Shown here: positions 2,322 to 21,892 of the stretch, one piece after another
Position numbering within the stretch: position 1 is the first letter of the stretch
How the letters are laid out: each line of letters opens with the position of its first letter
Assembly: GCF_023273895.1 (NCBI RefSeq)
Contig: NZ_CP096883.1
Coordinates: forward strand, 310,001-374,000
Origin: Sphingobacterium sp. PCS056
Lineage (GTDB): Bacteria; Bacteroidota; Bacteroidia; Sphingobacteriales; Sphingobacteriaceae
Reading direction: 5' to 3'
Length of the DNA: 64,000 bases
Program-made: the position numbers and the translations under genes
The notes under the pieces: generated by a model
Database searches by the model: none
Seen by the model: the letters and a program-made list of their open reading frames with translations, nothing else
What the model was told of the DNA's origin: nothing

Positions 2322-4685
2322 ATGATAAAGCTATTTTTTAAAACTTCTCTAGGCCATATAAAACGTAATCCATGGAACGCAACGATCAATATCATCGGTC
2401 TTGCTCTCGGTTTTACCGTTGCTTTAATCAGTACCCTCTGGATATTGAAACAGTTTTCTTTTGATAAAAACTTTCAAAACTACGATACCATTTATCAAGT
2501 CATGGTCACAGGTACTTTCAATGACGAAATGTCTACCGATCCATCGACCTCAATTCCATTGGCAAAATGGATCGAATCTGATTTTAAAGATGAAATGGAA
2601 CAAGTCACTTTATCAACAGGATTGGAAAGTACCATTTTCAAAGCAGGGGATAAAAAACTAAGTGCCAGTGGCTGCTATGCTTTAGGTAAATTTTCGGAGA
2701 TCTTTAGTTTTCAAACTATTGAGGGTGAGGTCTCCACTCCTACTGACGCTAATACATTCATCATATCGCAATCATTAGCTTCTCGCTTATTTGGAAGCCA
2801 AAGTGCGATTGGAAAAATCGTTCAGCTCAATGGAAAGGATCAATATCTCGTTAAAGGGGTATATGCAGATCTTCCTCAGAATAGTACTTTTTACCAATTG
2901 GACTATATTTTACCGATTGCAGATTATTTAGCAAAAAACGAAGGGATTGCTGATGGATGGAACAATTGCTACTTTAATACTTATGTGCAGGTTACCAATA
3001 GTAAGCTGATTCCTACTATTGAATCAAAATTGACTGCGGTTTTCAAAACAAAACTCACCGATATCAATCCTGAAATACTATTGCATCCTATGGAGAAATG
3101 GCATTTGTACGAGTCTTTTAAAAATGGTAAAAATAATGGTGGACAGATTCAATACGTTTGGATGATTGCATTAATCAGCTGTTTGATCCTTTCATTGGCG
3201 TGTATCAATTTTATCAACCTGAGCACTGCCAGAAGTCTAAAAAGAGGTAAAGAAGTCGGAGTACTCAAATCATTTGGCGTCAATCGAAAACAATTAATTC
3301 AAGGCTTTCTAGTAGAATCCGTTTGGTCTGTTGGTATTTCGTTTGTATTTTCAATGCTATTCACACTCCTCCTATTACCATGGATTAATAAACTTACACA
3401 TGCACAGCTCGAACTTCCATTAAGTTCGTCTTTATTTTATGCTATTTCGTTTGCGGCAATCTTTGTAATCGGATTATTAGCAGGCATCTACCCTTCTATA
3501 TTTTTATCCTCCTTCAACCCGACTCTTGCTCTTAAAGGAAAACTACAACTTAGCAAAGGTAGATTTCAACCACGTAAAGTCATGGTGGTAATTCAATTTG
3601 CGATCTCCATTTTTATGATGATTGCCACTTATTTGGTTATACAGCAATTGTACCATGTCAAAGAACGCCCGATCGGCTATAATAACCAAAACCTAATCAA
3701 TGTGATCAGCAGCAGTCCAGAAATCAGGAAAAATTTTGAAGTTCTCAAAAGAGACTTACAAAATAAAGGACTTATTGAAGATGCAACCCTTTCTTCGAGT
3801 TTTGTGAATAGACTTGGACTATCTGGTGGTGGGTTTACATGGGAAGGTAATGATCCTATTGAGGGCTCTATATTGGGAATATGCACAGTTGATGAAAGCT
3901 TTGGCAATACGGTAGGCTGGAATTTCTTAAAAGGGCGAAACTTTTCTAAAGATTTCAAAACAGATTCGTCTGGGGTTATTATTAATGAAGCCGCTGCAAA
4001 ATTTATGGGTTTGACATCGTTGAATAGCAAAACATTAAGTAAACGCGGAAAGACTTATGAGATATTGGGTGTTATTGAAAACACCATTTCGGAATCTCCG
4101 TTTAAGTCGATCACGCCTACAGCGTATTTCTTGGATTTTCTTCCGAAAAACAAAATTACCATTGGCTTGAAAGATTATGAGCATCAAAGTCAAACACTTA
4201 AAGCTATTGGAGAAAAATTCATGGCAACGGATCCGAACCTTATATTTGAATATACTTTTACAGATCAAGCGTATGCCAAAGAATTTACTCAGATGGAAAT
4301 GATTCGAAGTCTAACCAGTCTATTTACGTGTCTTGCAATCTTGATCTCATGCCTTGGGCTCTATGCTCTTGTTTCCTTTCTGACCGAACAGCGTGAAAAA
4401 GAAATCGGAATTCGCAAAGTATTGGGTGCTTCAGAAATTGGTCTGTGGAGACTCTTATCTACCGAATATATCTGGCTTACATTAATTGGTTTTCTCATAG
4501 CTGCACCATTAGCATACTTATTTATGGAGAAGTGGTTGGAAAATTATGTTTATCGTATCTCTATAAACTGGTCTATTTTTATCGTTACTGGGAGCATCGC
4601 TTTATTGATAACGCTAGTAACCGTAAGTTTTCAAGCAATCAAAGCTGCTTTGTCCAATCCTATAGATACACTAAGGAATGAATAA
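2322..4685 (+). CDS. ABC transporter permease, FtsX/MacB double-domain type (permease 2)
   Basis: This 787-residue protein has a first membrane helix at about residues 20-42, followed by a MacB-like periplasmic core. An FtsX block starts at about residue 278 (CINFINLSTARS, then KEVGVLKSFG). A second core follows, then a last FtsX block from about 665 (EKEIGIRKVLGAS), and the chain ends in NPIDTLRNE. Length and order match the other permeases of the cluster. It lies 49 bp after permease 1. The next gene is 164 bp away, behind a palindrome and a sigma-54-like promoter, so this gene probably ends the first transcription unit. The family is clear but the transported substrate is not known. Confidence 0.93.
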   Translation: MIKLFFKTSLGHIKRNPWNATINIIGLALGFTVALISTLWILKQFSFDKNFQNYDTIYQVMVTGTFNDEMSTDPSTSIPLAKWIESDFKDEMEQVTLSTGLESTIFKAGDKKLSASGCYALGKFSEIFSFQTIEGEVSTPTDANTFIISQSLASRLFGSQSAIGKIVQLNGKDQYLVKGVYADLPQNSTFYQLDYILPIADYLAKNEGIADGWNNCYFNTYVQVTNSKLIPTIESKLTAVFKTKLTDINPEILLHPMEKWHLYESFKNGKNNGGQIQYVWMIALISCLILSLACINFINLSTARSLKRGKEVGVLKSFGVNRKQLIQGFLVESVWSVGISFVFSMLFTLLLLPWINKLTHAQLELPLSSSLFYAISFAAIFVIGLLAGIYPSIFLSSFNPTLALKGKLQLSKGRFQPRKVMVVIQFAISIFMMIATYLVIQQLYHVKERPIGYNNQNLINVISSSPEIRKNFEVLKRDLQNKGLIEDATLSSSFVNRLGLSGGGFTWEGNDPIEGSILGICTVDESFGNTVGWNFLKGRNFSKDFKTDSSGVIINEAAAKFMGLTSLNSKTLSKRGKTYEILGVIENTISESPFKSITPTAYFLDFLPKNKITIGLKDYEHQSQTLKAIGEKFMATDPNLIFEYTFTDQAYAKEFTQMEMIRSLTSLFTCLAILISCLGLYALVSFLTEQREKEIGIRKVLGASEIGLWRLLSTEYIWLTLIGFLIAAPLAYLFMEKWLENYVYRISINWSIFIVTGSIALLITLVTVSFQAIKAALSNPIDTLRNE

Positions 4686-4699
4686 GAATATGATTCACA

Positions 4700-4736
4700 T
4701 GTACGCTTACGAACGCTAAGTGTTCGAAAGCGTACA
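4700..4736. promoter_or_regulatory. 37-bp imperfect palindrome, copy 1 (putative enhancer/operator)
   Basis: Arms TGTACGCTT and AAGCGTACA flank the inner half-sites GAACG and TGTTCG. Two mismatched pairs are visible in the 18-bp arms. The same 37-bp layout recurs at 15861-15897 and 18535-18571. All three copies share TGT at positions 1-3, C at 5, GAACG at 12-16, TGTTCG at 22-27, G at 33 and ACA at 35-37. It ends 55 bp before a sigma-54-like element, a spacing typical of upstream activator sites of enhancer-binding proteins. The binding protein is not identified. Confidence 0.75.
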
Positions 4737-4791
4737 CTTACAGAAGACCAATACATAGATTAAGGTGCTGAAAAACAGCATTTTAAAACAA

Positions 4792-4807
4792 TGGCTTAGG
4801 TATTGAA
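4792..4807 (+). promoter_or_regulatory. Sigma-54-like -24/-12 promoter element, copy 1
   Basis: The element reads TGGCTTAGGTATTGAA. It has the -24 GG and a -12 TTG at the canonical sigma-54 distance (consensus TGGCAC-N5-TTGCW), but A replaces the -12 C. It is the weakest of the three copies in this window. It lies 42 bp before the start of permease 3 and 55 bp after the palindrome. Assignment to sigma-54 is inference from spacing, sequence and recurrence. Confidence 0.5.
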
Positions 4808-4849
4808 CTTTAAAAACAAAAATAAGACAACAGCCTAAAGTACAATACC

Positions 4850-7211
4850 ATGATACGGAACAATTTCAAAATCGCTTGGAGAAATCTACTGAAAAGTAAG
4901 GGATATGCAACCATTAACATTATCGGATTAGCTATTGGAATGGCGGCTGTTTTGATGATTGCTATTTGGGTACAGAATCAATCACAATTTGACAATTTCT
5001 ATAGTAACAAAGACAACTTATATCGTGTTTGGAATAAATATGAAGATGTAGGTCAAATCGGCATGAGTAATATCACTTCAGGCCCGGCATCTGTTACTTT
5101 AAAAGCTGAATACCCTGAGGTAGAGCATGCGGCACGTGTGTATTGGAATGTGGATAGATTATTATCTTTTGATGAGAATAAAATTAAGTCTAAAGGCACG
5201 GAGGTTGATCCTTCTTTTATGGAGATGTTTGATTTTAAACTTTTAAAGGGTAATCGCAGTCAAGTTCTCTCTGGTCCACAAAACATCATCTTAACAGAAA
5301 GCCTCTCCAAGAAAATATTTGGCGATACGGATCCTTTAAATAAAACCCTTATACTGGACAATAAGGAACCTTATCAAGTATCTGGAATTATTGCCGATTT
5401 GCCAAGCAATACCGATTTTGATTTTAACTATTTGATTCCCCTAACTAAGGCGGATAATTACTCTCCAAACTGGAATACAAGTACATTCATGACCTACATC
5501 CAACTTAAAGATGGTACAGATGTGGATGCCTTTAATAAAAAAACTAAAAAATATCATTGCAAAAAAGACAAATAACGAGTTAAAAGGTTCCCTATTTTTA
5601 TATCCGCTATCTAAAATGCACTTGTATTCAAAATTTGAACAGGGTGTACCAGTTGGTGGTAAAATTGATCAAGTTAAATTGGTGGCTGGTTTGGGATTTT
5701 TGATTCTATTGATCGCTTGCATCAATTTCGTTAATCTCAGCACTGCTCGTAGCCAAAAACGAGCCAAAGAAGTAGCGGTACGAAAAGTGGTGGGTGCGCA
5801 ACGCAGTAGTTTAATTGCCCAATTTTTGACGGAATCGGTATTGCTTTCATTCATTGCGGGAATTCTGTCGATCGGATTAACTTTCTTGGCACTTCCTTTT
5901 TTTAATAAAATCCTAGATAAACCGTTAGTTTTCTCCATTACAGATCCAATAATCTGGGTCTCATTAGTAGGATTTATCCTGTTAACTGGAGTGTTTGCAG
6001 GCTTATACCCTGCATTTGTACTATCCTCATTTAAGCCTATAAGATCTCTCAAAGTATTTGGAAAATCTAAAAAACTGGCTTTAAATTTTCGGGAAGTATT
6101 AGTCGTATTCCAATTTGGAATTGCGCTTATCTTAATTATTGCAACCTTGATTGTCCGTAGCCAAATTGAATACGCTGGAAAACGTGATATCGGCTATTCT
6201 CCTTCGCAACTGATCGAAATTCCTATGGAAGGTGATATGACAAAAAATTATAAAGTCATTAAATCTGAATTGATCAATAAAAATATTGCGCATGCTGTAA
6301 CCCGTACGGGGTGGTCGATAACCCGAAATGCGTCAAACTCAAGTGGTAATTTTTCATGGGAAGGGGCAACTCCTGAACAAGGAAAGAAAATCGTATTCAA
6401 TATTGGTAAGGCAGAAAGTGATTTTGTTAAAACTCTTGGCTTAAAGGTACTGGAAGGTCGTGACATCGACTTTGAACGGTTGGCTTCCGATAGTCTATCG
6501 GTGCTGGTGAACGAGGCTGCTATCAAAGAAATGAAATTGAAAAATCCTATTGGTAGCATCCTGAAATGGGGAAGCAACACATTTACGATAGTAGGGGTCA
6601 TTAATGATTACATTAATGATTCTCCCTACAGTCCTGTTACCCCTCTTCTCATTTACCCTGCTAAAGAGTGGATGTTAAATATGGTCGTTCGTACTAACCC
6701 ATCTTTGCCAATAGACCATAACTTGAAACAAATGGAGGAGATACTCAAAAAATTTAATCCAGAGTATCCCTTTGAATATAAATTTGTTGATCAGCAATTT
6801 GCGACCAAGTTTAAAGAACAGCAGCAAACTGCTCAGTTGGCACTTATTTTCTCTGGATTGGCCATTTTTATATCTTGTCTAGGCTTACTTGGACTAGCGT
6901 CGTATATTGCTGAATTAAGAACAAAAGAGATCGGTATTCGTAAAGTATTGGGTGCTTCTGTAACAGGTATAACAGCTATGCTGTCGCGAGATTTTGTAAA
7001 ACTGGTACTTATAGCGATTCTGCTTGCTTCACCTATTGCTTGGTGGACCATGAATAAATGGTTAGAAGATTTTTCTTACCGCATCGAAATTCAGTGGTGG
7101 ATCTTTGCAGTCGCTGGTATTGCGGCATTAACGATTGCGATATTAACGGTCAGTACACAAGCGATTAGAGCTGCGAATACAAATCCTGTAAAAACATTGA
7201 GAGATGAGTAA
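4850..7211 (+). pseudogene. ABC transporter permease, FtsX/MacB double-domain type, split by a +1 frameshift (permease 3)
   Basis: Two overlapping frames (4850-5575 and the frame ending at 7211) together give one complete family member of about 786 residues. The first encodes the N-terminal helix and core (KIAWRNLLKSKGYATINIIG). The second continues exactly where the first diverges (FLYPLSKMHLYS, then CINFVNLSTARS) and runs to NPVKTLRDE. The frames separate near a run of seven A at 5537-5543, with six more A at 5546-5551. Removing one A restores the alignment with permease 5. The ATG at 5511 that opens the second frame is not a family start. Possible causes are a real inactivating mutation, slippage-based phase variation or a sequencing error; the sequence alone does not decide. 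It is the first gene after the palindrome and sigma-54-like promoter. Confidence 0.85.
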
Positions 7212-7283
7212 TCTAATCGAAAATTTATCAACAAATCTGCATGGGCTAGTTTACAAAATACAAGAATTTAAAAGCATAAAATA

Positions 7284-9674
7284 ATGATCAAGAATCATAT
7301 CAAAATAGCATGGCGTAATATTCGGAAGAATAAGGGCTTTTCATTACTCAATATGTCTGGGTTAACAATGGGAATAACCTGCTTTCTTCTATTAGCTACT
7401 TATATCTATCACGAATCCAGTTATGAACGCTTTTTCTCTCATGCTGATCGGCTTGCTTATTTTAGTTTATCTTACAAATCTCCAAATAGTTCTGAATTGG
7501 TCTCATCGGGCACAACGCCCACTGGATTACAACAGGTCCTACAATCAGAGTTTCCTGAGGTAGAGCAAGCGAGCCGCTTATATGCTTACACTCAAGCGGG
7601 ATTAATTGATATTGATGACCAATCTTTGAAAGAAAATAAGCTTTACTATGCAGACCATAATTTGTTTGAAATATTGGATTACCAATTTATCGAAGGAAGT
7701 AAAAAACATGTACTCGAAGGTCCGAATCAAATTGTGCTTACGGAGAGTTTGGCTAAAAAATATTTTCCGAATGAACCTGCCACGAACAAAACTTTGGTCA
7801 TTGATAAGGTGAATTGGAAAGTGACTGGAGTTATACAGGATCTACCGAGCAATACGCAGTTGCAATTTTCTGCAATCTTATCTAATCAGGGTTTAGCTCG
7901 TTACAAAGAATCATCCTGGACTTCTGCTAATGATATCACCATAGCCTTATTGGCCAATGAGATGAGCTTCCAATCAGTTCAACTTAAGCTGGATAATCTG
8001 GTCAAGAATAAGTTTAATGATGCTATTAAACAAGGTTATCAATTTGGTTTCCAAATAGAAAAATTAACCGATATTCATCTGCACTCAAAAACATCAGGTA
8101 CTGGAAATATACTCTATGTCTACATACTAGGAGCCTTAGGTATTGCGCTAATTGTCTTGACCTGCATTAATTTTACAAATTTAATCCTTGCACATGCTAT
8201 AGAGCGCAAAAAAGAGATCGGCGTAAAGAAAGTGTTGGGAGCCCGCCGTCAAAACATTTTTTTCCAATTTTTATTGGAATGCAGTGTGATGATTTTAATT
8301 TCCTTATTGCTGAGTATATTGGCAACTTTTCTTCTTTTGCCGGTTTTTAGTCATTTTATGGGGGTAGATATCAGCATTAATATATGGGACAAACCTGCTG
8401 TTTATCTATCCTTATCGACATTCTTTATTGCCTTATCAATACTTGCTGGCGGATGGCCAGCTTACTCAATTTCTAGCTTAAAACCGATTTCAATCTTTAA
8501 GAGTAAACTGAGTGAAAAGCGAACTGGAATATCGCTGAGTAAAATACTGATTGCTTTCCAATTTTGTATTTCTATATTTTTTATCATTTGTACTTTATTT
8601 GCAAGTAGACAAATGGAATTTATTCAATCTAAAAATACTGGATTGGATCGCTCTGATATATTGGTGATTGATGGACGGGGATGGAAGGACAAAGAACGTC
8701 AGTTACTGAAAGACAAGTTGAGTCAGTTAAATAGTGTCAAAGGAATGACTGCTTCCTATGACAATCCTGTAAATATACAAGGCGGTTATAGCATCAGTGA
8801 TGTGGAGGGGCAACCGACGGATTTTTCTATTAATGTAACGGCTATCCCGATTGAAAAAGACTTTGTATCGTTATTTAATATTAAATCAGTTGCTGGCTCC
8901 CCTCTTTCGGATACGGACATATTAAGAGCAAGAGATACCGTATCTCCTGAAAATAGTTTTATTATCAATACGTTAACGGCATCAGCGCTGGGCTGGAGCC
9001 CTACAGAGGCTGTCGGTAAGAGAATAAATTTAAATGGTCGTAAAGGTTCTATTAAACAAGTTGTTGAAAGCTTCAATTTCACCTCACTGCATAATGAGAT
9101 TAGCCCTGTTGTCCTCTTCCCCGAGTATGATTATTTTGGAAATATATTCATCAAGCTTAATGCACAAGTTCCGATGCAGGATGCTATCAATCAAGTAAAA
9201 ACGATCGTGAAAGAAATTGATCCGAAAAACACCTATGAATATCACTTTCTTAATGATGACTATAATCAACTTTACCTCCAAGATCAACAGACTACCAAAG
9301 CGATGCAACTGTTTTCATTTATTACCATTACCATTGCGTGTATGGGCTTATTTGCTCTTTCCACTTATACGGTTCAACAACGGATCAAAGAGATCGGTAT
9401 CCGTAAAGTATTGGGTGCGTCTGTATTAAAAATAGTTAAGTTATTAAGTTTTGATTTTCTAAAATTAGTCGTATTTGCTTTACTGATCAGTGTTCCTTTT
9501 GGTTGGTTGGCGATGTACAAATGGATGGATAATTTTGCATATCATATTGAACTGGATTGGTGGGTATTTGTATTTGCTGGATGTGTCGCGTTAACAATTG
9601 CTTTTTTAACGATAAGCTACCAAACTATACGTGCAGCAATTATCAATCCTGTTGAATGCTTACGAGATGAATAA
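7284..9674 (+). CDS. ABC transporter permease, FtsX/MacB double-domain type (permease 4)
   Basis: This 796-residue protein begins with the family sequence KIAWRNIRKNKGFSLLNMSG, and its first helix is at about residues 20-42. The first FtsX block (CINFTNLILAHAIERKKEIGVKKVLGA) diverges from the usual NLSTARS motif. The last block has KEIGIRKVLGAS, and the C-terminus is NPVECLRDE. It follows permease 3 by 72 bp and precedes permease 5 by 39 bp, with no terminator seen between them. It probably belongs to the transcript starting near 4807. The substrate is unknown. Confidence 0.93.
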   Translation: MIKNHIKIAWRNIRKNKGFSLLNMSGLTMGITCFLLLATYIYHESSYERFFSHADRLAYFSLSYKSPNSSELVSSGTTPTGLQQVLQSEFPEVEQASRLYAYTQAGLIDIDDQSLKENKLYYADHNLFEILDYQFIEGSKKHVLEGPNQIVLTESLAKKYFPNEPATNKTLVIDKVNWKVTGVIQDLPSNTQLQFSAILSNQGLARYKESSWTSANDITIALLANEMSFQSVQLKLDNLVKNKFNDAIKQGYQFGFQIEKLTDIHLHSKTSGTGNILYVYILGALGIALIVLTCINFTNLILAHAIERKKEIGVKKVLGARRQNIFFQFLLECSVMILISLLLSILATFLLLPVFSHFMGVDISINIWDKPAVYLSLSTFFIALSILAGGWPAYSISSLKPISIFKSKLSEKRTGISLSKILIAFQFCISIFFIICTLFASRQMEFIQSKNTGLDRSDILVIDGRGWKDKERQLLKDKLSQLNSVKGMTASYDNPVNIQGGYSISDVEGQPTDFSINVTAIPIEKDFVSLFNIKSVAGSPLSDTDILRARDTVSPENSFIINTLTASALGWSPTEAVGKRINLNGRKGSIKQVVESFNFTSLHNEISPVVLFPEYDYFGNIFIKLNAQVPMQDAINQVKTIVKEIDPKNTYEYHFLNDDYNQLYLQDQQTTKAMQLFSFITITIACMGLFALSTYTVQQRIKEIGIRKVLGASVLKIVKLLSFDFLKLVVFALLISVPFGWLAMYKWMDNFAYHIELDWWVFVFAGCVALTIAFLTISYQTIRAAIINPVECLRDE

Positions 9675-9713
9675 AATAGTCATTTTGAATAGACACCTCT
9701 TGATAAAATAACA

Positions 9714-12092
9714 ATGATCAATAACTATATTAAAATCGCTTGGCGTAATTTGCTAAAAAATAAAGCTTTTTCAAGCATCAATATCATTGGATTGGCCATT
9801 GGTATGGCAGGGGCTTTACTGATCGCACTTTGGTTACAAAATATGCTGAGTATGGATCGCTTTCATATGAAGGGTGATAGACTGTACGTGATCAGTAATC
9901 GGGATATGAATCAGGGACAGGTGTGGGCTTGGGTGAATACACCAAAAATTATGGGGCCTACGTTGAAGAAAGATTTTCCAGATATTGAAAAATTCACGCG
10001 TTATGATCAATTTAATAATTTTCTAACGACCTATAACAATAAAAAAATCGTATCTCAAGTCGCATTTGTTGATCCTGGTTTTTTTGATATGTTTAGCTTT
10101 CCTATAGTCAAGGGTAATAAAAATAAATTGCTTCAAAATGCAAATTCCGTTGTTTTGACACAAAAGTTTGCTGAGACTTTATTTGGAAACTCTGATCCTG
10201 TGGGCAAAACCATCAAAATAGATTCTGTAAACTTAGTGACAGTGGATGCTGTATTACAAGATCTACCCAATAACACCAGTATGCAATTTGACTATTTGCT
10301 GTCATGGGAATATGCTAAAAAAATTGGCTATACGGATGAAAACTGGCAGAACAACTCCATCGAAACATATGTTCTGCTACGGGAGACAACACCATTAGAA
10401 GCCTTTAACAACAAAATAAGGCTTGTTAGTCAAAATCATATTAATGTGGGCAATAATGAAATCAGGTCGACAAATGAAATCTTTGCATTCCCTTATCAAG
10501 ATGCCTATTTGTACAACAAAAGTGTTAATGGCGCTTATACTGCTGGTCGCATTCAATTGGTGCATTTATTTACTTGGATTGGCTCATTTATCTTGTTGGT
10601 GGCTTGTATCAATTTCATGAACTTGAGTACTGCTCGTTCTGAGCGAAGGGCTAAAGAGGTAGGCGTTCGAAAGGTGGTAGGTGCTGATCGTAAAAGTCTG
10701 ATTGCACAGTTTATTGTAGAAAGTGTTTTAATCAGTTTTGCCGCCATGATACTAGCAGTAGGCTGTATCATCTTAATTCTTCCGGCATTTAATAATTTAG
10801 TTGAGAAAAATCTTCATATTTCCCTACTTTCTGGCAGCAATTGGTTATTTTTAATTATTTTCACGATTATTACAGGTGTTTTGGCAGGTAGCTACCCTGC
10901 ATTTTTCCTGTCCTCTTTTAAACCGCTAAAAACGTTAAAGGGAAAATTAAACTCTTATAAAAGGGGCTTAAGCGTACGCTCTATTCTGGTTATCTTGCAA
11001 TTTTCAATTGCTATTATTCTGACAATAGCAACCATTATTATATTCCAACAGATTCAGCATACTAAAGATCGGGATCGGGGTTATGATGACAATGGGTTAT
11101 TAGTGAGCAGTATTTCTGGAGAACTTGAAAAGAATTATTTAAATCTTCGTAACGAATTGCTGGCTAGCAATGCTGTTGTTTCTGTTTCTAAAAATATGTC
11201 GCCAGTGACTGATCGATATAGCAATGGCATGGGGTTTTCCTGGCCTGGAAGTAGCGAAAGCGATAAAAAAGTATCGTTCAATCGTTTCAGTACGGATGCT
11301 GATGCGGTTGAAAATTTAGGATTTACACTTTTATCAGGTAGAGATATTGATATTTATAAATATAAAACTGATAGTAATGCAATGTTATTGACAGAAACTG
11401 CTGTTAAAAGCATGCGATTACAAAATCCGATTGGTCAGGTTATCCATGGAGATAGAGAGGACTGGACTGTAGTAGGTGTAATCAAAGATTTCATCGTTGA
11501 TTCACCATATGGTGAAACTTTACCGATGATTATTTTTGGTCCTAAATCTTGGTTTACAAATATCCACTACCGATTGAACCCAAACAATAGTACTGTTAAT
11601 AATTTAAAAACGGTAGCGGATATCTTCAAAAAATTCAATCCGGATTACCCTTTTGAGTATAAGTTTATTGATAAAAATTTTGAAGCTAAATTTAAAGAGA
11701 CGCAATCTATTGGTACTCTGTCTATGCTTTTTGCGGTATTGACCATCTTTATTTCTTGCTTGGGTTTATTTGCTTTGATTGCTTATATGGCAGAAACGCG
11801 TATGAAAGAAATTGCTGTCAGGAAAGTCTTGGGTGCATCTATTGGACAATTAACATCTTTGCTTTCTGTTGATTTTATTAAATTAGTGCTTATGGCCATC
11901 CTTATTGCATCGCCAATAGCATGGTGGGTTATGGATAATTGGTTACAGGATTATAATTATCGCATAGAAATTCAATGGCAGTATTTTGCTGCTGCTGGAT
12001 TGATGGCTATTTTGATCAGTTTAGCCACCATTAGCTTCCAAACGATTAAAGCTGCTCTTTCAAATCCTGTTGATAGTTTGCGGGATGAGTAA
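9714..12092 (+). CDS. ABC transporter permease, FtsX/MacB double-domain type (permease 5)
   Basis: This 792-residue intact member has the N-terminus MINNYIKIAWRNLLKNKAFS and a helix at about residues 20-42. The first FtsX block contains CINFMNLSTARSERRAKEVG and the last contains KEIAVRKVLGAS. The C-terminus is NPVDSLRDE. By eye it is the closest relative of the frameshifted permease 3: both share SPIAWW followed by a short amphipathic stretch and YRIEIQW near the end. That makes it the best template for locating the frameshift. It lies 39 bp after permease 4. Confidence 0.93.
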   Translation: MINNYIKIAWRNLLKNKAFSSINIIGLAIGMAGALLIALWLQNMLSMDRFHMKGDRLYVISNRDMNQGQVWAWVNTPKIMGPTLKKDFPDIEKFTRYDQFNNFLTTYNNKKIVSQVAFVDPGFFDMFSFPIVKGNKNKLLQNANSVVLTQKFAETLFGNSDPVGKTIKIDSVNLVTVDAVLQDLPNNTSMQFDYLLSWEYAKKIGYTDENWQNNSIETYVLLRETTPLEAFNNKIRLVSQNHINVGNNEIRSTNEIFAFPYQDAYLYNKSVNGAYTAGRIQLVHLFTWIGSFILLVACINFMNLSTARSERRAKEVGVRKVVGADRKSLIAQFIVESVLISFAAMILAVGCIILILPAFNNLVEKNLHISLLSGSNWLFLIIFTIITGVLAGSYPAFFLSSFKPLKTLKGKLNSYKRGLSVRSILVILQFSIAIILTIATIIIFQQIQHTKDRDRGYDDNGLLVSSISGELEKNYLNLRNELLASNAVVSVSKNMSPVTDRYSNGMGFSWPGSSESDKKVSFNRFSTDADAVENLGFTLLSGRDIDIYKYKTDSNAMLLTETAVKSMRLQNPIGQVIHGDREDWTVVGVIKDFIVDSPYGETLPMIIFGPKSWFTNIHYRLNPNNSTVNNLKTVADIFKKFNPDYPFEYKFIDKNFEAKFKETQSIGTLSMLFAVLTIFISCLGLFALIAYMAETRMKEIAVRKVLGASIGQLTSLLSVDFIKLVLMAILIASPIAWWVMDNWLQDYNYRIEIQWQYFAAAGLMAILISLATISFQTIKAALSNPVDSLRDE

Positions 12093-12212
12093 GTGTGTTA
12101 TGAGAATAAAACGATCCGCGGTAAGAAAAATATGTTCTACGTAAACCCAATCTGATGGACGCGGTTACTATTTTAATGAGATCAACTAATATCGAAGGCA
12201 AAAAACAGGATA

Positions 12213-14615
12213 ATGCTAAAAAACAATATAAAAATCGCTTGGCGTAATATTATAAAGCGTAAATACGAAAGTTTAATCAATCTTGTGGGTTTGATTTGTA
12301 GTATTACTTTTGTCATACTTGTAGGGGCTTATGTCTGGGAAGTACATCAAGTTAACAGCCAACTACGCCATAAAGAACAGCAGTACCTACTACAAAGTAA
12401 TTATAAAAAAGAAGGTTTTGGTATACCATTAACAAGTATTGGTGCTTTGCCAAAGGCTTTAAAAGAAGAATATCCTCAATTGGTGGCAAATTACTATCGA
12501 ATCGATGGATTGACCTGTATTGTTTCCCATGGTCAGCAGATATTCGAAGAAGGTACAGTTGTTGGAGATCCTACCTTATTGGACATGTTCGGCTTCCAAT
12601 TGTTTGAAGGAAATTCAACAACTGCATTAACAAAACCATTCAGTGTAGTCATCACCGAAAAAGCCGCTAAAAAATATTTTGGAAAACTAAATGTTTTAGG
12701 TCAAACGTTGGAAATCAAAAACTTCAATGGCGATAAGCAGCCTTTCACGATCACAGGTGTAATCATAGAAAATACACAGAATTCCGTAATGCACTTAAAT
12801 GATGCCATGAAATCCGATATCTTTCTACCTATAGCAAGTGAATCTTATTTTGGAAGGTCTATCGACAACTGGCACAATCCTTATATCGTTTCTTTTATCG
12901 AGCTTCAAAAAGGAATTACTCCTGATCAATTACATGCTCCTATTCAGGATCTCATAAAGCGGAATATGGATGCGGAATTTTCTTTAAACTATACCCCAGA
13001 TCTAAAACCTTTAAAAAGCTACTTTTTAGATGACAACAACGGGGCTATTCGTAAAATGATTTCTACCTTACTTTGGATTGCAGGTTTCGTTTTACTAATG
13101 GCTGTCATCAATTTCATCAATATCACGATCAGTCAAAACTTCTCACGCCTTAAAGAGATGGGGGTGCGCAAAGTAATGGGTTCATCTCGTACACAGATTA
13201 TAGCTCAATTACTTACTGAATATGTGATTACGCTAATTATTGCTGTTATATTGAGCCTTCCTTTGTATGTATTGTTAACTCCCGTGTTTGAAGGTATCTT
13301 TATGCGTGAACTACCGACATTGACAGCTCTTCCTGCTGCATTTTTTATTTTATTATTTCTATTTGCTTGTATGGTCGGCTTTTTTGCTGGGATCTATCCT
13401 GCAATAAAACTATCAAGCAATGGTATATTGGAGTCTATAAAAAATAAATTCACTCAAAATAACAATAAACAGGTTATTCGTCGGGTATTAATCTTTATAC
13501 AATTTGCTGTGGCTATTATTATCTTAATGGCTACTATTATTATATCCAAACAGATCGATTTATTTTTACATGGCAACTCTGGGTATAATAAGGAATCGGT
13601 ATTGACGGTACAGGTACCTCGTGATTGGAGTGAAGTAGGATTAAAGAAAATGGAAACTACTCGAAATGAGTTTGAGAGGCTTCCGCAAATCGAATCGCTA
13701 AGCCTTTCTTATGAAATCCCTGGATTCATTGGAGGGAATAACAGTACATTAATAAACAATAAAACAGAAAAAGAAGTCAATACGAAAGTGATCATGTCTG
13801 ATGACCATTTTGCAAAAACGTATCAAATTCCAATATTAGCTGGAACATTTTTATCTAAAAACACAGCTGATCATCAGACTTCTTATATTGTGATCAATAG
13901 AAAGGCGATGCTTGCGTTGGGATTTAAACAACCTGACGAAGCTGTCGGACAAACGATTGGATTGGATGATGAACATCAATATGTCACGATTTCGGGTGTA
14001 ACTGCAGATTTTATTCCCAACTCTATGCTGGAAGAAACCGCTCCTGTTGTATGGATAGATATAAACAAATCATTGCAGTTTCGTTATTTTAGTCTCCGGT
14101 TGAAGGCTGGAAATTTGAGTTCTTCTATGTCAGCATTAGAACAAAAATGGAAAGAGTTACTTCCGGATGCTCCGTTTCAATATCAATTTACGGATGAACG
14201 TATTCAGAAATTGTACAAGACAGAACTCCAGTTACAGCGTGCCTCACAAGTCGCTTCCATCGCTGCTCTTTTAATTGTATCGTTGGGAATAATTGGTTTG
14301 ATTACATTGTCCATAAATTTGCGTAATAAAGAAGTAGGTGTACGCAAAGTTCTGGGAGCTTCACTATCACATTTAATTTTACTTTTCTCAAAAGAATTTT
14401 ACATGATTTTTGTTTTGGCTTTATTAGTGACGATACCTATTAGTTATATACTTATGCATATCTGGTTACAAAATTATAGCAGTCGAATCGAGATTGACTT
14501 ACTCACGTATTTGCTTCCACTGGGTTTTTTAACTTTATTATTGGGCACATTGATCATAGGTATAATATATCGTGCTACACGATTTAATCCGATTGAAAAA
14601 TTGAGAGATGAATAA
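12213..14615 (+). CDS. ABC transporter permease, FtsX/MacB double-domain type (permease 6, divergent)
   Basis: This 800-residue member keeps the N-terminal KIAWRN and C-terminal NPIEKLRDE signatures. It is more divergent inside: the first FtsX block reads NFINITISQNFSRLKEMGVRKVMGSS and the last reads NKEVGVRKVLGAS. The two periplasmic cores and two FtsX blocks are in the usual order. A 120-bp gap with neither the palindrome nor a sigma-54-like element separates it from permease 5. It may therefore be read through from upstream or have a promoter I do not recognise. It is followed by a strong hairpin and then by a gene on the opposite strand. Confidence 0.92.
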   Translation: MLKNNIKIAWRNIIKRKYESLINLVGLICSITFVILVGAYVWEVHQVNSQLRHKEQQYLLQSNYKKEGFGIPLTSIGALPKALKEEYPQLVANYYRIDGLTCIVSHGQQIFEEGTVVGDPTLLDMFGFQLFEGNSTTALTKPFSVVITEKAAKKYFGKLNVLGQTLEIKNFNGDKQPFTITGVIIENTQNSVMHLNDAMKSDIFLPIASESYFGRSIDNWHNPYIVSFIELQKGITPDQLHAPIQDLIKRNMDAEFSLNYTPDLKPLKSYFLDDNNGAIRKMISTLLWIAGFVLLMAVINFINITISQNFSRLKEMGVRKVMGSSRTQIIAQLLTEYVITLIIAVILSLPLYVLLTPVFEGIFMRELPTLTALPAAFFILLFLFACMVGFFAGIYPAIKLSSNGILESIKNKFTQNNNKQVIRRVLIFIQFAVAIIILMATIIISKQIDLFLHGNSGYNKESVLTVQVPRDWSEVGLKKMETTRNEFERLPQIESLSLSYEIPGFIGGNNSTLINNKTEKEVNTKVIMSDDHFAKTYQIPILAGTFLSKNTADHQTSYIVINRKAMLALGFKQPDEAVGQTIGLDDEHQYVTISGVTADFIPNSMLEETAPVVWIDINKSLQFRYFSLRLKAGNLSSSMSALEQKWKELLPDAPFQYQFTDERIQKLYKTELQLQRASQVASIAALLIVSLGIIGLITLSINLRNKEVGVRKVLGASLSHLILLFSKEFYMIFVLALLVTIPISYILMHIWLQNYSSRIEIDLLTYLLPLGFLTLLLGTLIIGIIYRATRFNPIEKLRDE

Positions 14616-14640
14616 AAAAAACATAAGATGCTAACTAAAG

Positions 14641-14671
14641 TATACACCGATCAATTATCAGTCGGTGTATA
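14641..14671. terminator. Inverted repeat between convergent genes, possible terminator
   Basis: A perfect 10-bp stem (TATACACCGA / TCGGTGTATA) surrounds an 11-base loop. It lies between permease 6 on the plus strand and the minus-strand gene at 14760. Neither side has a long T-run, so it is not a textbook intrinsic terminator, although its convergent position suits one. Confidence 0.45.
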
Positions 14672-14759
14672 AATATGGTGCTTGTAAGGCTTAAGATTTT
14701 GAGATGACTTCGAGCCTAATTTAAAAACAGTGCTCGATTCTCTATCTTTTCGTGAACTG

Positions 14760-15428
14760 TTATACCTGTAAATAAGCAACGCCAGAAAAATTCTTTTTAC
14801 TTGAAATCCTTTGTTCCAAATGATATTTTTCCTTATTATCTACATAATTTTGTAAAACAACTTTCAGATTTTTAGGAGCTATAGAGCTATCAATTGCATC
14901 TTGACATTTATATAATATTTCATATGCGAGTCTTTCTTGTGTAAAATATCCTTTCTCAAATAGCTTATCCATTAAATTCTTTAATTGTTCTATTTCATTA
15001 GCGGTTGAATTGCTAAAGCTATCAATATCATGTCTGGAGTCCATTAACAAAAAAATGGTTTTAAAAGCTTCTTTGTTTTCATCCAGCTGTTTGAGCTCAT
15101 AAATCACACGATCACTACAAATAGTTTTAAACATCTTATAATTAAACTTTTGATGATCAATATCAACAGAATTAGGATAAACTACGCCAGCATTATAATC
15201 TAACACCTGTGTAAACACGAAGAGATCATGGGCATAAATACTCTTTATCTTGAAACTTTCTATTTTTTCAATAAAGTCATCTTCTTTTCCCATTAAAAAT
15301 GAAACTTCTTCTGTAGATAGATTTTTTGCTGTCCGGAGTAGCATCATGCGGTATAAAATGATGATTTCAATTTCACTACACCGAATTTTGTACTCTTGAA
15401 TTGTTGGGGGAGATTGCTTCTTTTTCAT
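14760..15428 (-). CDS. Hypothetical protein with an N-terminal HTH-like segment
   Basis: This 222-residue soluble protein has no signal peptide or membrane helix. Residues about 28-62 (LYRMMLLRTAKNLSTEEVSFLMG) resemble the start of an XRE-type helix-turn-helix, but the match is weak. The rest is alpha-helical-looking, charged and unrecognised. It is divergent from the small XRE-like gene at 15558 across a 129-bp AT-rich gap. The pair interrupts the row of permeases, which suggests a local regulator or a later insertion. No function is assigned. Confidence 0.7.
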   Translation of the reverse strand: MKKKQSPPTIQEYKIRCSEIEIIILYRMMLLRTAKNLSTEEVSFLMGKEDDFIEKIESFKIKSIYAHDLFVFTQVLDYNAGVVYPNSVDIDHQKFNYKMFKTICSDRVIYELKQLDENKEAFKTIFLLMDSRHDIDSFSNSTANEIEQLKNLMDKLFEKGYFTQERLAYEILYKCQDAIDSSIAPKNLKVVLQNYVDNKEKYHLEQRISSKKNFSGVAYLQV

Positions 15429-15441
15429 AATTACAATTTAT

Positions 15442-15454
15442 ATAGATATTCTAT
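15442..15454. promoter_or_regulatory. Short palindrome in the divergent HTH-gene promoter region
   Basis: The sequence contains ATAGA-TAT-TCTAT, a perfect 5-bp dyad, just upstream of the start codon of the minus-strand gene. Its position would suit autoregulation by one of the two flanking HTH-like proteins. It is short and lies in AT-rich DNA, so chance occurrence is quite possible. Confidence 0.25.
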
Positions 15455-15557
15455 ACAAAAGAAAGGAATAACTAGCAATATTCAAAATATTTGTATATAT
15501 AATAACAACATTTAATATATTTAGCTATACACATGAATAGAAAAATAAATATACTGT

Positions 15558-15779
15558 ATGACAAAACTTGGAGAAATTCTAGCAAAAAAATCTGTCAATA
15601 AATCAATGGTAGCGCGCAAGACAGGATTAAGTAAAGCACGAATCAACGAACTCACCATGAATGATACGGCAAAATTAAGATTAGATGAAATGTATCTCAT
15701 TGCGCTAGCAATTGATAGTGATCCGAATGAAATGATGCTTAAATTATGTGAAGACCTACGTCTAAAAGATTCAATTTAA
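15558..15779 (+). CDS. Small XRE/Cro-like helix-turn-helix protein
   Basis: At 73 residues the protein is essentially only a DNA-binding domain: GEILAKKSVNKSMVARKTGLSKARINELT forms helices 1-3, with recognition helix about residues 23-33. The helix containing LRLDEMYLIALAIDSDPNEM follows, as in HTH_3 proteins. Such short XRE proteins usually act as repressors or as antitoxin-like partners. It is transcribed divergently from the 222-residue gene. A TTTG at 15490 and a TA-rich -7-like box near 15516 lie upstream, but their 22-bp spacing is slightly long. Targets are unknown. Confidence 0.8.
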   Translation: MTKLGEILAKKSVNKSMVARKTGLSKARINELTMNDTAKLRLDEMYLIALAIDSDPNEMMLKLCEDLRLKDSI

Positions 15780-15860
15780 CCGCATCTATTTGATAGACTA
15801 TACTTTGTTTTGTATTTAGCCGCTATATGAGCTCTTCCATTAATAGCTGATTAAGACATT

Positions 15861-15897
15861 TGTACGATATTGAACGTAAACTGTTCGTTATCGTACA
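15861..15897. promoter_or_regulatory. 37-bp imperfect palindrome, copy 2 (putative enhancer/operator)
   Basis: The outer arms TGTACGATA and TATCGTACA are perfectly complementary. The inner half-sites are GAACG and TGTTCG. The total length and the positions of the invariant bases equal copies 1 and 3. It ends 53 bp before the sigma-54-like element upstream of permease 7. It is the most symmetrical of the three copies. Confidence 0.78.
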
Positions 15898-15950
15898 AAA
15901 TTTTGGCCCTTAAAAATCACAAATAACTAACCAACAGCAACATACAGATT

Positions 15951-15966
15951 TGGCAATGCAATTGTT
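15951..15966 (+). promoter_or_regulatory. Sigma-54-like -24/-12 promoter element, copy 2
   Basis: The element reads TGGCAATGCAATTGTT. It matches TGGCA at -24 and TTG at -12 with canonical spacing; the -12 C is replaced by T. It differs from copy 3 at only two of 16 positions. It lies 61 bp before the chosen start of permease 7. Confidence 0.6.
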
Positions 15967-16027
15967 TTCATGATAATAGACTCCTTCTCATCATGATTTG
16001 ACAGGATTTATCGAAAATGAAATTGTT

Positions 16028-18472
16028 ATGCTTGTAAATAATCTTAAAATCGCTTGGCGGAATATCACAAAGAATAAATTGTACTCCAGTATCAAAATTG
16101 GTGGATTTGCTTTTGGTATTGCTATCTGTTTATTGATTGTTCTCTATATTAAACATGAAACTAGTTACAATAAGTTGTACCCTGCTATGGAGAGGGTTTA
16201 TCGTCTTGTTGTTCAGGCACCAGAAGGTAATAAAATCAATCGATGGGTATCTCTTTCTGCTCCTGGTGCGGCCACATTAAAAGATGAAATTCCTGCTATA
16301 GAAAGTTCGGGACGTATGCTTCCTAATCCTCAATTCGGTGCAGGTAGCAATCAATTGACTATTAATAGTTTGCCTGAAAGTCATTATGATGATGGATTTG
16401 TTTATATCGATCAATCCATATTGGACATGTTTCCCTCTCCTATGCAATACGGTCAATTGCAACATGCGTTAGATAAACCGAATACCGTGGTTCTGACAAA
16501 AAGTAAGGCAATTAAATATTTTAAAGGAAATCCTATTGGACAACAGATCTATTTGAACAATGACAAATCCAAGAGTTACACCATCACAGGGGTTATCGAT
16601 GATACCCCTAGCCATTCTACATTATCTGGTTATGGTTTTTTCATGTCACTGGCTGGTGAACCATTTTATCCAGGTGAACAGCAGAAATGGACGAGCAATA
16701 ATTATACGATCTATATCAAATTGAAGCCTGAAACAAATGTCAGCCTCGCAGAGCAAGAAATTTTCAAAACTTACATCTCCGGACATTATATTCCTGAACT
16801 GATCAAAGCTGGAAGAAAAGTTGGTCCTATCGTGAATCAAATTAAAATCAAGCTTCAAAATGCGCTGGATATCCACCTATATTCAGCAGACATCGAAGAT
16901 GATCGCGTATCAACATTGAATCGTGGTGATATTCGTATGGTATGGACTTTTGCTGCGGTAGCTTTTTTTATTTTGTTGATTGCAGGTATTAATTTTGTCA
17001 ACTTATCAACTGCTAATGCAACAAATAGAGCAAAGGAAATAGGTATTCGTAAGACTATTGGTTCGAGCAGGAATAGTTTGATCAGTCAATTTATGATCGA
17101 AGCATTAAGCTATAGCTTTCTATCTTTACTCTTAGGTGTTCTTTTAGCAAATCTGCTATTACCACTTTTCAATAACATCGCTAATAAATCAATTCAGATG
17201 CCATGGTTCAACTGGTATTTCATTCCTTCATTGGTACTTTCTACTGTTATCATCGGTGTTGTAGCCGGTATTTATCCTGCGCTCTACCTTTCTGGTTTTA
17301 GACCTATCGCGGCATTAAAAAATAAATTAATCGGTAACGTACGCAAACCCTCGCTGAGAAATGGTTTGGTCATTTTTCAATTTGCGACCTCCATTATTTT
17401 AATTATTGGAGCACTCATCAGTAATCAACAAATACAATATATCCTTCAAAAAGATCTGGGGTTTAGCAAAGATCAGGTGATCGTCCTTCGTGGATTGAAT
17501 GCTGTCGACGATAAATTAAGCCCACTTAAACGTGAACTTTACGCCCTTCCTACTGTCACCCATGTTTCTATTGGCGACTATTTGCCTGTTCCGATCGATG
17601 GAGCGAAGAGAAATGGTAATGCCTTTTGGTTGGATGGGAAGCGAGAACAAGACTTGGCAACACAGGGGCAATTCTGGAGAATAGATGAAGAGTATCTTGA
17701 CACTTATGGAATTAAATTGATTGAAGGGCGTAATTTTAATCCGGAAATGGCTTCGGATAGTATGGGCATCATTGTCAATAAACAAATGATAGCAGAACTG
17801 GGCATAAAAAATCCGATTGGCTCAAAAATCACAAATGGGGAGACCTGGACGATTGTAGGTGTGGTCGATGATTTTATTTTTGAATCTTTAAAAGGTGAGG
17901 GCATTGCTCCTATCGGTTTGGTGTTGCGCGATAGCCCTTCTCTGTTGTCCATTAAAGTACAGCCTCAAAACATGGACGAAACATTGGCTTCGATCACCAA
18001 GGTTTGGAATCAGTTTAGTCCAAACCAAAAGATCAATTATAGTTTTATGGATGAAGGTTTTGAAGCTTTATATCAAGATGTAAAACGGACAAAAAATATG
18101 TTCACCTGCTTTGCTGTAGTTGCTATTTTTATCGCTTCACTGGGTTTATTTGGTTTGGTAACCTATATTACTCAACAGCGGACTAAAGAAATAGGTATTA
18201 GAAAAGTGCTTGGAGCGAGCCATATGAGCTTGTTAAAATTACTGTCAGAGGATTTCATAAAACTGGTGTTTGTCGCCATTGTCATTGCCATACCAATCGC
18301 TTGGTGGGCAATGAACCAATGGCTTGCTGATTTTAATTACAGAATTAATATCAATTGGGTATATTTTATTGTTGCTGGAGGATCTGCCATTTTGATCGCC
18401 TTATTGACGATTAGTTTCCAAACAATAAAAGTGATCCGTACTAACCCAGTGGATAGCTTAAGAAATGAATAG
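16028..18472 (+). CDS. ABC transporter permease, FtsX/MacB double-domain type (permease 7)
   Basis: The start at 16028 gives MLVNNLKIAWRNITKNKLYS, aligned with the other permeases. An ATG ten codons upstream (15998) would add an unconserved extension and was not used. The product is 814 residues. The first FtsX block has GINFVNLSTANATNRAKEIGIRK, the last has KEIGIRKVLGAS, and the C-terminus is NPVDSLRNE. It is slightly longer than its paralogues because of insertions in the first periplasmic core. It has its own palindrome and sigma-54-like promoter, and 230 bp with another such module separate it from permease 8. It therefore looks like a separate unit under the same control. Confidence 0.92.
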   Translation: MLVNNLKIAWRNITKNKLYSSIKIGGFAFGIAICLLIVLYIKHETSYNKLYPAMERVYRLVVQAPEGNKINRWVSLSAPGAATLKDEIPAIESSGRMLPNPQFGAGSNQLTINSLPESHYDDGFVYIDQSILDMFPSPMQYGQLQHALDKPNTVVLTKSKAIKYFKGNPIGQQIYLNNDKSKSYTITGVIDDTPSHSTLSGYGFFMSLAGEPFYPGEQQKWTSNNYTIYIKLKPETNVSLAEQEIFKTYISGHYIPELIKAGRKVGPIVNQIKIKLQNALDIHLYSADIEDDRVSTLNRGDIRMVWTFAAVAFFILLIAGINFVNLSTANATNRAKEIGIRKTIGSSRNSLISQFMIEALSYSFLSLLLGVLLANLLLPLFNNIANKSIQMPWFNWYFIPSLVLSTVIIGVVAGIYPALYLSGFRPIAALKNKLIGNVRKPSLRNGLVIFQFATSIILIIGALISNQQIQYILQKDLGFSKDQVIVLRGLNAVDDKLSPLKRELYALPTVTHVSIGDYLPVPIDGAKRNGNAFWLDGKREQDLATQGQFWRIDEEYLDTYGIKLIEGRNFNPEMASDSMGIIVNKQMIAELGIKNPIGSKITNGETWTIVGVVDDFIFESLKGEGIAPIGLVLRDSPSLLSIKVQPQNMDETLASITKVWNQFSPNQKINYSFMDEGFEALYQDVKRTKNMFTCFAVVAIFIASLGLFGLVTYITQQRTKEIGIRKVLGASHMSLLKLLSEDFIKLVFVAIVIAIPIAWWAMNQWLADFNYRININWVYFIVAGGSAILIALLTISFQTIKVIRTNPVDSLRNE

Positions 18473-18534
18473 TTAAGCGCAACTAATGGATCTTCTGTTG
18501 GACGCAGAGATGTCTTCAATTCGTAAAAACACGT

Positions 18535-18571
18535 TGTCCATAACTGAACGTTTACTGTTCGATATTGAACA
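18535..18571. promoter_or_regulatory. 37-bp imperfect palindrome, copy 3 (putative enhancer/operator)
   Basis: This copy keeps the core GAACG-N5-TGTTCG and the terminal TGT and ACA at the same positions as copies 1 and 2, but its outer arms are degenerate. Within it, CTGTTC and GAACAG form an additional perfect dyad around GATATT, so a half-site may be duplicated. It ends 53 bp before the sigma-54-like element of permease 8. Confidence 0.72.
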
Positions 18572-18624
18572 GTAATAACAGGTATAGAAACAATAACATA
18601 CTGATAACTAGACTGTAATTAAAA

Positions 18625-18640
18625 TGGCAAAGCAATTGTA
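18625..18640 (+). promoter_or_regulatory. Sigma-54-like -24/-12 promoter element, copy 3
   Basis: The element reads TGGCAAAGCAATTGTA, nearly identical to copy 2. It carries the -24 TGGCA and the -12 TTG at sigma-54 spacing. It lies 62 bp before the start of permease 8, and its distance to the upstream palindrome (53 bp) equals that of copy 2. Confidence 0.6.
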
Positions 18641-21232: not shown

Positions 21233-21892
21233 ATGATACAGCTAAAGCACTTATTTAAATGGTATAATGTTGGAAGTACTCGTTCATTTGTACTTAAAGA
21301 TGTGAGTCTAACTATTGAACAGGGAGAATTTATTTCGATCATGGGACCATCAGGTTCTGGAAAATCAACGTTGTTGAACATCATCGGTATGCTGGATGCT
21401 CCAGATGAAGGTGAGTACTTTTTTCAGGGTGAAAATGTTCTGGATCTAAAACAGAAGAAAAGAACACAACTTTTTCAATCGCACATGGGATATGTCTTTC
21501 AATCTTATCATTTACTCGATGAGATGACCGTATATGAAAATATTGAAACACCATTGATCTATAAAAACAAATCTTCGTCTGAACGTAAATCTATCGTCAG
21601 CGATTTATTAGATCGTTTTAACATCGTAGGAAAAAAAGATTTATTTCCTTCACAATTATCTGGTGGACAGCAACAAATTGTAGGTATTGCTAGAGCTTTG
21701 GCAGGTTCTCCTTCTCTCCTATTGGCTGATGAACCCACTGGTAATCTAAACTCTAAACAGGGGGAAGAAATCATGGAGTTGTTTCAGCAGCTCAATGCCG
21801 AAGGAGTCACCATCATTCAGGTGACACACTCTGAAAAAAATGCCACTTATGGTAAGAGAACCATCCACATGCTGGATGGTCAATTAAAGTAA
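21233..21892 (+). CDS. ABC transporter ATP-binding protein, MacB/LolD-like
   Basis: This 219-residue single nucleotide-binding domain has Walker A GPSGSGKST at residues 38-46 and a Q-loop in YVFQSYHLLDEMT. The signature LSGGQQQ is near residue 142 and Walker B LLLADEPTGNL starts near 162. The H-loop histidine is in QVTHSEKNA. After the signature the usual arginine (LSGGQQQR) is isoleucine here. The domain would power FtsX-type permeases at the inner face of the cytoplasmic membrane. It is the only ATPase in the cluster, so it probably serves several of the eight permeases. A strong terminator follows. Confidence 0.95.
   Translation: MIQLKHLFKWYNVGSTRSFVLKDVSLTIEQGEFISIMGPSGSGKSTLLNIIGMLDAPDEGEYFFQGENVLDLKQKKRTQLFQSHMGYVFQSYHLLDEMTVYENIETPLIYKNKSSSERKSIVSDLLDRFNIVGKKDLFPSQLSGGQQQIVGIARALAGSPSLLLADEPTGNLNSKQGEEIMELFQQLNAEGVTIIQVTHSEKNATYGKRTIHMLDGQLK

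Follow-up and report, generated by a model that had tools for sequence, protein, structure and literature searches.

A probable self-controlled two-component/sigma-54 regulon driving an exporter cluster with a variable permease set in Sphingobacterium sp. PCS056

The window that was analysed comprises 64,000 nucleotides (bases 310001-374000) of the 5.2 Mb single-contig genome of Sphingobacterium sp. PCS056. It opens inside a gene cluster that extends up to 19 kb left of the window start and carries 13 duplicated MacB/FtsX-type permeases (P1-P13) of about 790 aa each. The genes are given below in genome coordinates left of the window and in window coordinates within it.

Genome 290602-291921, minus strand: histidine kinase
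Genome 291925-293286, minus strand: NtrC-type response regulator (enhancer-binding protein, EBP)
Genome 293390-294697, minus strand: TolC-like channel
Genome 295023-296273, plus strand: HlyD-like (HlyD/MacA-like) adaptor
Genome 296364-298730, plus strand: permease P1
Genome 298765-299469, plus strand: ATPase a (LolD-like)
Genome, up to 331099, plus strand: permeases P2-P13
Window 56-2272, plus strand: duplicated MacB/FtsX permease 1 of the window (P6), with its gene start left of the window
Window 2322-4685, plus strand: permease 2 (P7)
Window 4850-7211, plus strand: permease 3 (P8), frame broken in A-runs near 5526-5545
Window 7284-9674, plus strand: permease 4 (P9)
Window 9714-12092, plus strand: permease 5 (P10), predicted fold matching YbbP, MacB and LolCDE
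Window 12213-14615, plus strand: permease 6 (P11)
Window 16028-18472, plus strand: permease 7 (P12)
Window 18703-21099, plus strand: permease 8 (P13)
Window 21233-21892 (genome 331233-331892), plus strand: ATPase b (ATPb), a second MacB/LolD-like ATPase, at the cluster end

The gene set of a tripartite system is complete, with matches to HlyD_3, MacB_PCD plus FtsX, ABC_tran and OEP. P1 has two MacB_PCD and two FtsX stretches, and 26 of the 33 FtsX-domain matches in the genome fall inside the cluster, the remainder being found one apiece in shorter open frames elsewhere. A structure predicted for P10 (pLDDT 86, pTM 0.79) has E. coli YbbP as its best match, followed by MacB, LolCDE and BceAB, and the sequence profiles agree. 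The adaptor protein is identical to one of Sphingobacterium faecium DSM 11690.

The number of permeases within 40 kb ranges from 2 to 13 across the genus. The third permease of the window consists of two overlapping frames, which may reflect a frameshift, a sequencing error or a decaying copy, and a permease remnant at genome 307160-307330 consists of an N-terminal start fused to a C-terminal end. This decayed remnant and the frame-broken copy point to permease turnover. Two further frames lie between permeases 6 and 7: a 222-aa protein (window 14760-15428, minus strand) that matches neither Pfam nor NCBIfam, and a small helix-turn-helix-like frame (about 15559-15779, plus strand).

Three intergenic 37-bp palindromes, each followed by a 16-bp element of the form TGGC-N3-G-N2-ATTG, had been noted in a preliminary description, and both proved to be real. 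The palindromes show 0 mismatches to the reported pattern, and the window contains no other match with up to three mismatches (0.01 expected from dinucleotide shuffles). The 16-bp element has exactly three matches, each behind a palindrome, vs. a chance expectation of 0.44, and the gaps of 55, 53 and 53 bp were reproduced.

Window 4700-4736, plus strand: double dyad (putative EBP enhancer), 5' of permease 3
Window 4792-4807, plus strand: sigma-54-type -24/-12 element TGGCTTAGGTATTGAA, 55 bp past its double dyad
Window 15861-15897, plus strand: double dyad, 5' of permease 7
Window 15951-15966, plus strand: -24/-12 element TGGCAATGCAATTGTT, 53 bp past its double dyad
Window 18535-18571, plus strand: double dyad, weakest copy, 5' of permease 8
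Window 18625-18640, plus strand: -24/-12 element TGGCAAAGCAATTGTA, 53 bp past its double dyad
Genome starts of the six double sites from the pattern search: 294789, 294888, 307000, 314700, 325861, 328535

The description of the palindromes can be refined: each consists of two tandem 16-bp dyads, TGTnCG-N4-CGnACA, the starts of which are 21 bp apart in the window copies. When 29 related loci and the present one were analysed, dyad starts were spaced by 21 bp in 61 pairs and by 22 bp in 37 pairs; the remaining spacings between 8 and 40 bp accounted for 5 pairs in total, and the reversed-sequence control yielded none at 8 to 40 bp in the same 30 regions. A spacing of 21-22 bp (two helical turns) is as expected for two dimers of one protein bound to the same DNA face.

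The genome-wide search with the palindrome pattern, which had been proposed earlier, revealed three further double sites left of the window (294789, a 22-bp variant; 294888; 307000). All six double sites are located inside the exporter cluster and none elsewhere; the reversed-pattern control gave counts of 2 and 1, and all its listed matches were within the cluster. Sites 294789 and 294888 share the divergent region, which has one double site for each direction, each with its own -24/-12 element. The element of the outer site is on the minus strand and faces the channel-regulator-kinase operon, while that of the inner site faces the adaptor. The fact that the regulator's own operon is addressed indicates that the regulator very probably controls its own expression.

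The suggestion that an NtrC-type regulator and a histidine kinase might be found left of the window, 5' of the first permease, turned out to be correct. The EBP has a receiver domain (PF00072), a Sigma54_activat domain (PF00158) and a Fis-type helix-turn-helix (PF02954), all above cut-off, and the kinase gene adjoins. As in nearly all orthologues, its loop reads GAFTDA, not GAFTGA. The genome encodes RpoN (one match, E 2.5e-56). In its receiver, AAA+ and Fis HTH domains, adjacent kinase, tandem upstream dyads, -24/-12 elements and the presence of rpoN, the system corresponds to NtrC/ZraR/AtoC-type control. The EBP scores far under the equivalog cut-offs for ZraR, AtoC and NtrC. Unlike in those systems, the distance between enhancer and promoter stays within 4 bp from genus to genus and the targets are a permease array.

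This distance emerged from related loci, for which double sites were gathered blind to the promoter and the sequence downstream was inspected only afterwards. In 95 of 109 sites, a TGGC starts at an offset of 52, 53, 54 or 55 bp, compared to 0.16 sites per offset at other positions. Palindromes were present in all 29 relative loci examined (29/29), mostly with a -24/-12 element at 52-55 bp. Three promoter classes can be distinguished: array (TGGCaaancaaTTG), channel (TTTGGCAtgggctatG) and adaptor (TGGCAcAncnTTntat). The array and channel classes conform to the sigma-54 criterion of a GG at -24 with GG-N10-G spacing to -12. The class of the adaptor (MFP), TGGCAyAnnnTTnTAT, is devoid of the -12 G in every genus, Chitinophagales included, and is therefore unusual as a sigma-54 promoter; one idea is that the missing G results in altered basal expression. 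A C at -12 is seldom found in the elements.

Of 25 genera sampled from the family, 17 have the regulator, and an adaptor with divergent regulator is also encoded in Chitinophagales (Segetibacter, Ginsengibacter and others). Class-wide, few genomes encode the adaptor (12 of 198 at E 1e-90). The Chitinophagales dyad reads TGTATC-N5-CGnACA; in most cases its copies keep the 22-bp spacing and lie 51-53 bp from TGGCAy. In the corresponding loci (L231-L253), the left half-dyad TGTnCG is replaced by TGTATC with one extra spacer base, and spacing and promoter are kept. The recognition helix was examined for co-change with this half-site: the two helix forms, TRAALYRRLEK and TRTALYRRLSK, are little different and the latter also occurs in genomes with ordinary sites, so there is no clear link to the half-site change.

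Among 61 Sphingobacterium genomes, rpoN was found in 60 and the EBP in 49. Double sites were detected in 49 of the 49 genomes with EBP vs. one of the 12 without (nine with no site, two with one-strand-only matches, and one with a single site, which was counted as positive). The association has a Fisher p of 3e-11, a value that ignores kinship among the 61 genomes, of which close relatives are not independent. All 12 EBP-less genomes have retained rpoN and all 12 lack the adaptor; the sites therefore follow the whole cluster, not the regulator alone. The cluster and its sites disappear jointly.

These data bear on the alternative that the double dyads bind another regulator, a repressor or an activator working with the main sigma factor, and that TGGC...TTG is not a sigma-54 promoter. 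Such a reading could draw on the deviation of the adaptor promoter class at -12, on three further EBP genes in the genome and on additional dyad-binding regulators that it surely encodes. However, it does not account for the constant distance of 52-55 bp from an element spaced GG-N10-G, for the EBP gene lying next door at almost every locus in two orders, or for the lack of sites where the EBP cluster is missing despite retention of rpoN, and we consider it improbable.

The composite of double dyad and promoter element is not confined to the clusters of the relatives. Among 20 places outside these clusters that were read for it, lone duplicated permease genes follow the composite in nine and a lone ATPase gene in one, with the element at 52-55 bp; it is weaker at two of the lone-gene sites (L147 and L150). 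At three places outside the cluster (L137, L141, L151) a convincing composite was not found and these were left out. The recurrence of the same composite at permease genes elsewhere in relatives is the best evidence that the promoter forms a functional unit. In addition, several loci attributed to Parapedobacter, a genus assignment we infer, have near-perfect sites at the adaptor promoter with no EBP gene alongside; genomes of that genus carry the regulator elsewhere. Together, the sites at orphan genes and these EBP-less adaptor loci indicate that the site is separable from mere neighbourhood.

Two other alternatives are less probable still. If the copies were recent duplications of permease-plus-promoter blocks, their likeness would be due to descent, not function. 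The array has clearly been expanded by duplication, and the permease remnant is located directly behind the composite promoter at 307000. Nevertheless, the spacer DNA between dyads and promoter has diverged, whereas the elements are kept across Sphingobacteriales and Chitinophagales and site variants retain the geometry, which makes this origin of the likeness very hard to uphold. Equally implausible is that the palindromes act in the RNA, as hairpins that terminate or process transcripts between permease genes, with a secondary downstream match: they do lie between array genes and could form hairpins in a transcript, but they also occur in the divergent region and 5' of lone genes, their symmetry is that of each 16-bp dyad, and they keep a constant distance from the promoter element but not from the gene. 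Hairpin/terminator, mobile-repeat and chance readings were all rejected on geometry, placement and conservation.

We thus consider it highly likely (probability roughly 0.9) that the locus represents a self-controlled two-component/sigma-54 regulon which drives a MacAB-TolC-like exporter with a variable permease set. An enhancer-binding-protein site with a sigma-54 promoter had been proposed earlier; rpoN, the EBP with its kinase, the geometry and the co-occurrence support this, and binding and RpoN dependence are predicted from them. The three intergenic elements of the window would act as sigma-54 promoters, and the upstream enhancer of each would offer the cluster's own NtrC-type regulator two dimer sites. 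An envelope signal would activate the kinase, which would phosphorylate the regulator. The phosphorylated regulator would occupy the two neighbouring dyads, which lie on one face of the DNA (21-22 bp), and form an AAA+ hexamer; across 52-55 bp, this would contact RNA polymerase-sigma-54 at the -24/-12 element, and the promoter would open for transcription. Predicted targets are the regulator's operon with the TolC-like channel, the adaptor-ATPase-permease operon, and permease segments further along the array. This would yield a MacAB-TolC/YbbAP-like export system, assembled from many alternative permeases, one adaptor, and one or two ATPases; all permeases presumably use a common ATPase and adaptor. 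From the proposal of an envelope-stress or export regulon, the export part is retained as a prediction.

The predicted exporter is related to several known systems. MacAB-TolC, DarBCD and YbbAP (Type VII ABC) share the adaptor, a separate LolD/MacB-like ATPase, a MacB_PCD plus FtsX permease and a TolC-like channel. Unlike in these, the present permease is duplicated and fused, and there are 13 of them; scores stay under the MacB cut-off, and the NCBIfam equivalog cut-offs for DarBCD were missed (DarC 163 of 450, DarD 302 of 375, DarB 140 of 700 bits). ADOP (TIGR03434) is the best NCBIfam match of P1 and likewise comprises duplicated permeases of about 790 aa, at a score below the curated cut-off (300.5 vs. 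622.3 bits); unlike ADOP, the present permeases share a cluster with an ATPase, an adaptor, a channel and a regulator of their own. Bacteroidota and Acidobacteria commonly encode large sets of duplicated MacB/FtsX permeases, which, to our knowledge, are mostly without an assigned regulator or substrate. One such set is now tied to a specific sensor pair, with an exact predicted binding site and promoter. BceAB also combines an FtsX-type ABC transporter with a two-component system (PMC5985334), whereas the present regulator is an NtrC-type sigma-54 activator and the permease is duplicated and MacB-like, not BceB-like. There is precedent for a fused half-transporter pair whose ATPase is a separate protein (PMC5985334).

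The preliminary description had called the regulon undescribed. For this circuit, the term holds in the literature searched, with subscription journals mostly outside its scope, where no description of this regulator, site, geometry or cluster was found; for a duplicated orphan permease, a species description alone turned up. It does not hold for the link between sigma-54 and FtsX permeases, which a 2025 in silico survey had already reported statistically (PLoS One, PMC12316311). There, predicted sigma-54 promoters were found to be enriched in Bacteroidia at permeases of COG0577 (FtsX), the family of the present ones, and this was called the first evidence for such a link. That association is statistical, per COG, and a term search of the text yielded no regulator, enhancer site or cluster for COG0577, nor did it turn up Sphingobacteri- or Chitinophag-. 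Genes for envelope stress and motility have been assigned sigma-54 promoters in Flavobacterium psychrophilum (PMC9723704).

The present system is a new, well-defined regulon built from parts of known kinds; it is unusual in its rigid geometry, in the portability of its promoter-permease units and in the odd promoter of the adaptor. The spacing, constant to about 4 bp between Sphingobacterium and Chitinophagales, provides a clean natural data set on close-range sigma-54 enhancers. A more tentative reading, possible rather than probable, is an exporter with swappable permeases, in which one adaptor, channel and ATPase serve fast-changing permeases, each enrolled by a portable promoter of rigid geometry. 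If so, copies which moved elsewhere in the genome would remain in the regulon of the single sensor pair.

The composite motif allows a motif-based search for regulon members, which may show what the pump exports or protects against. In some relatives, it lies 5' of genes for small secreted proteins that weakly match PF12893 (NTF2-like; loci L142, L143, L144, L145, L146 and L153), some of the genes occurring in several copies. These might be unexpected regulon members and hint at the function. In one relative, a PF00144 protein of the serine-hydrolase/beta-lactamase family (L138:2519-3940) is encoded behind a double site with the element at 53 bp.
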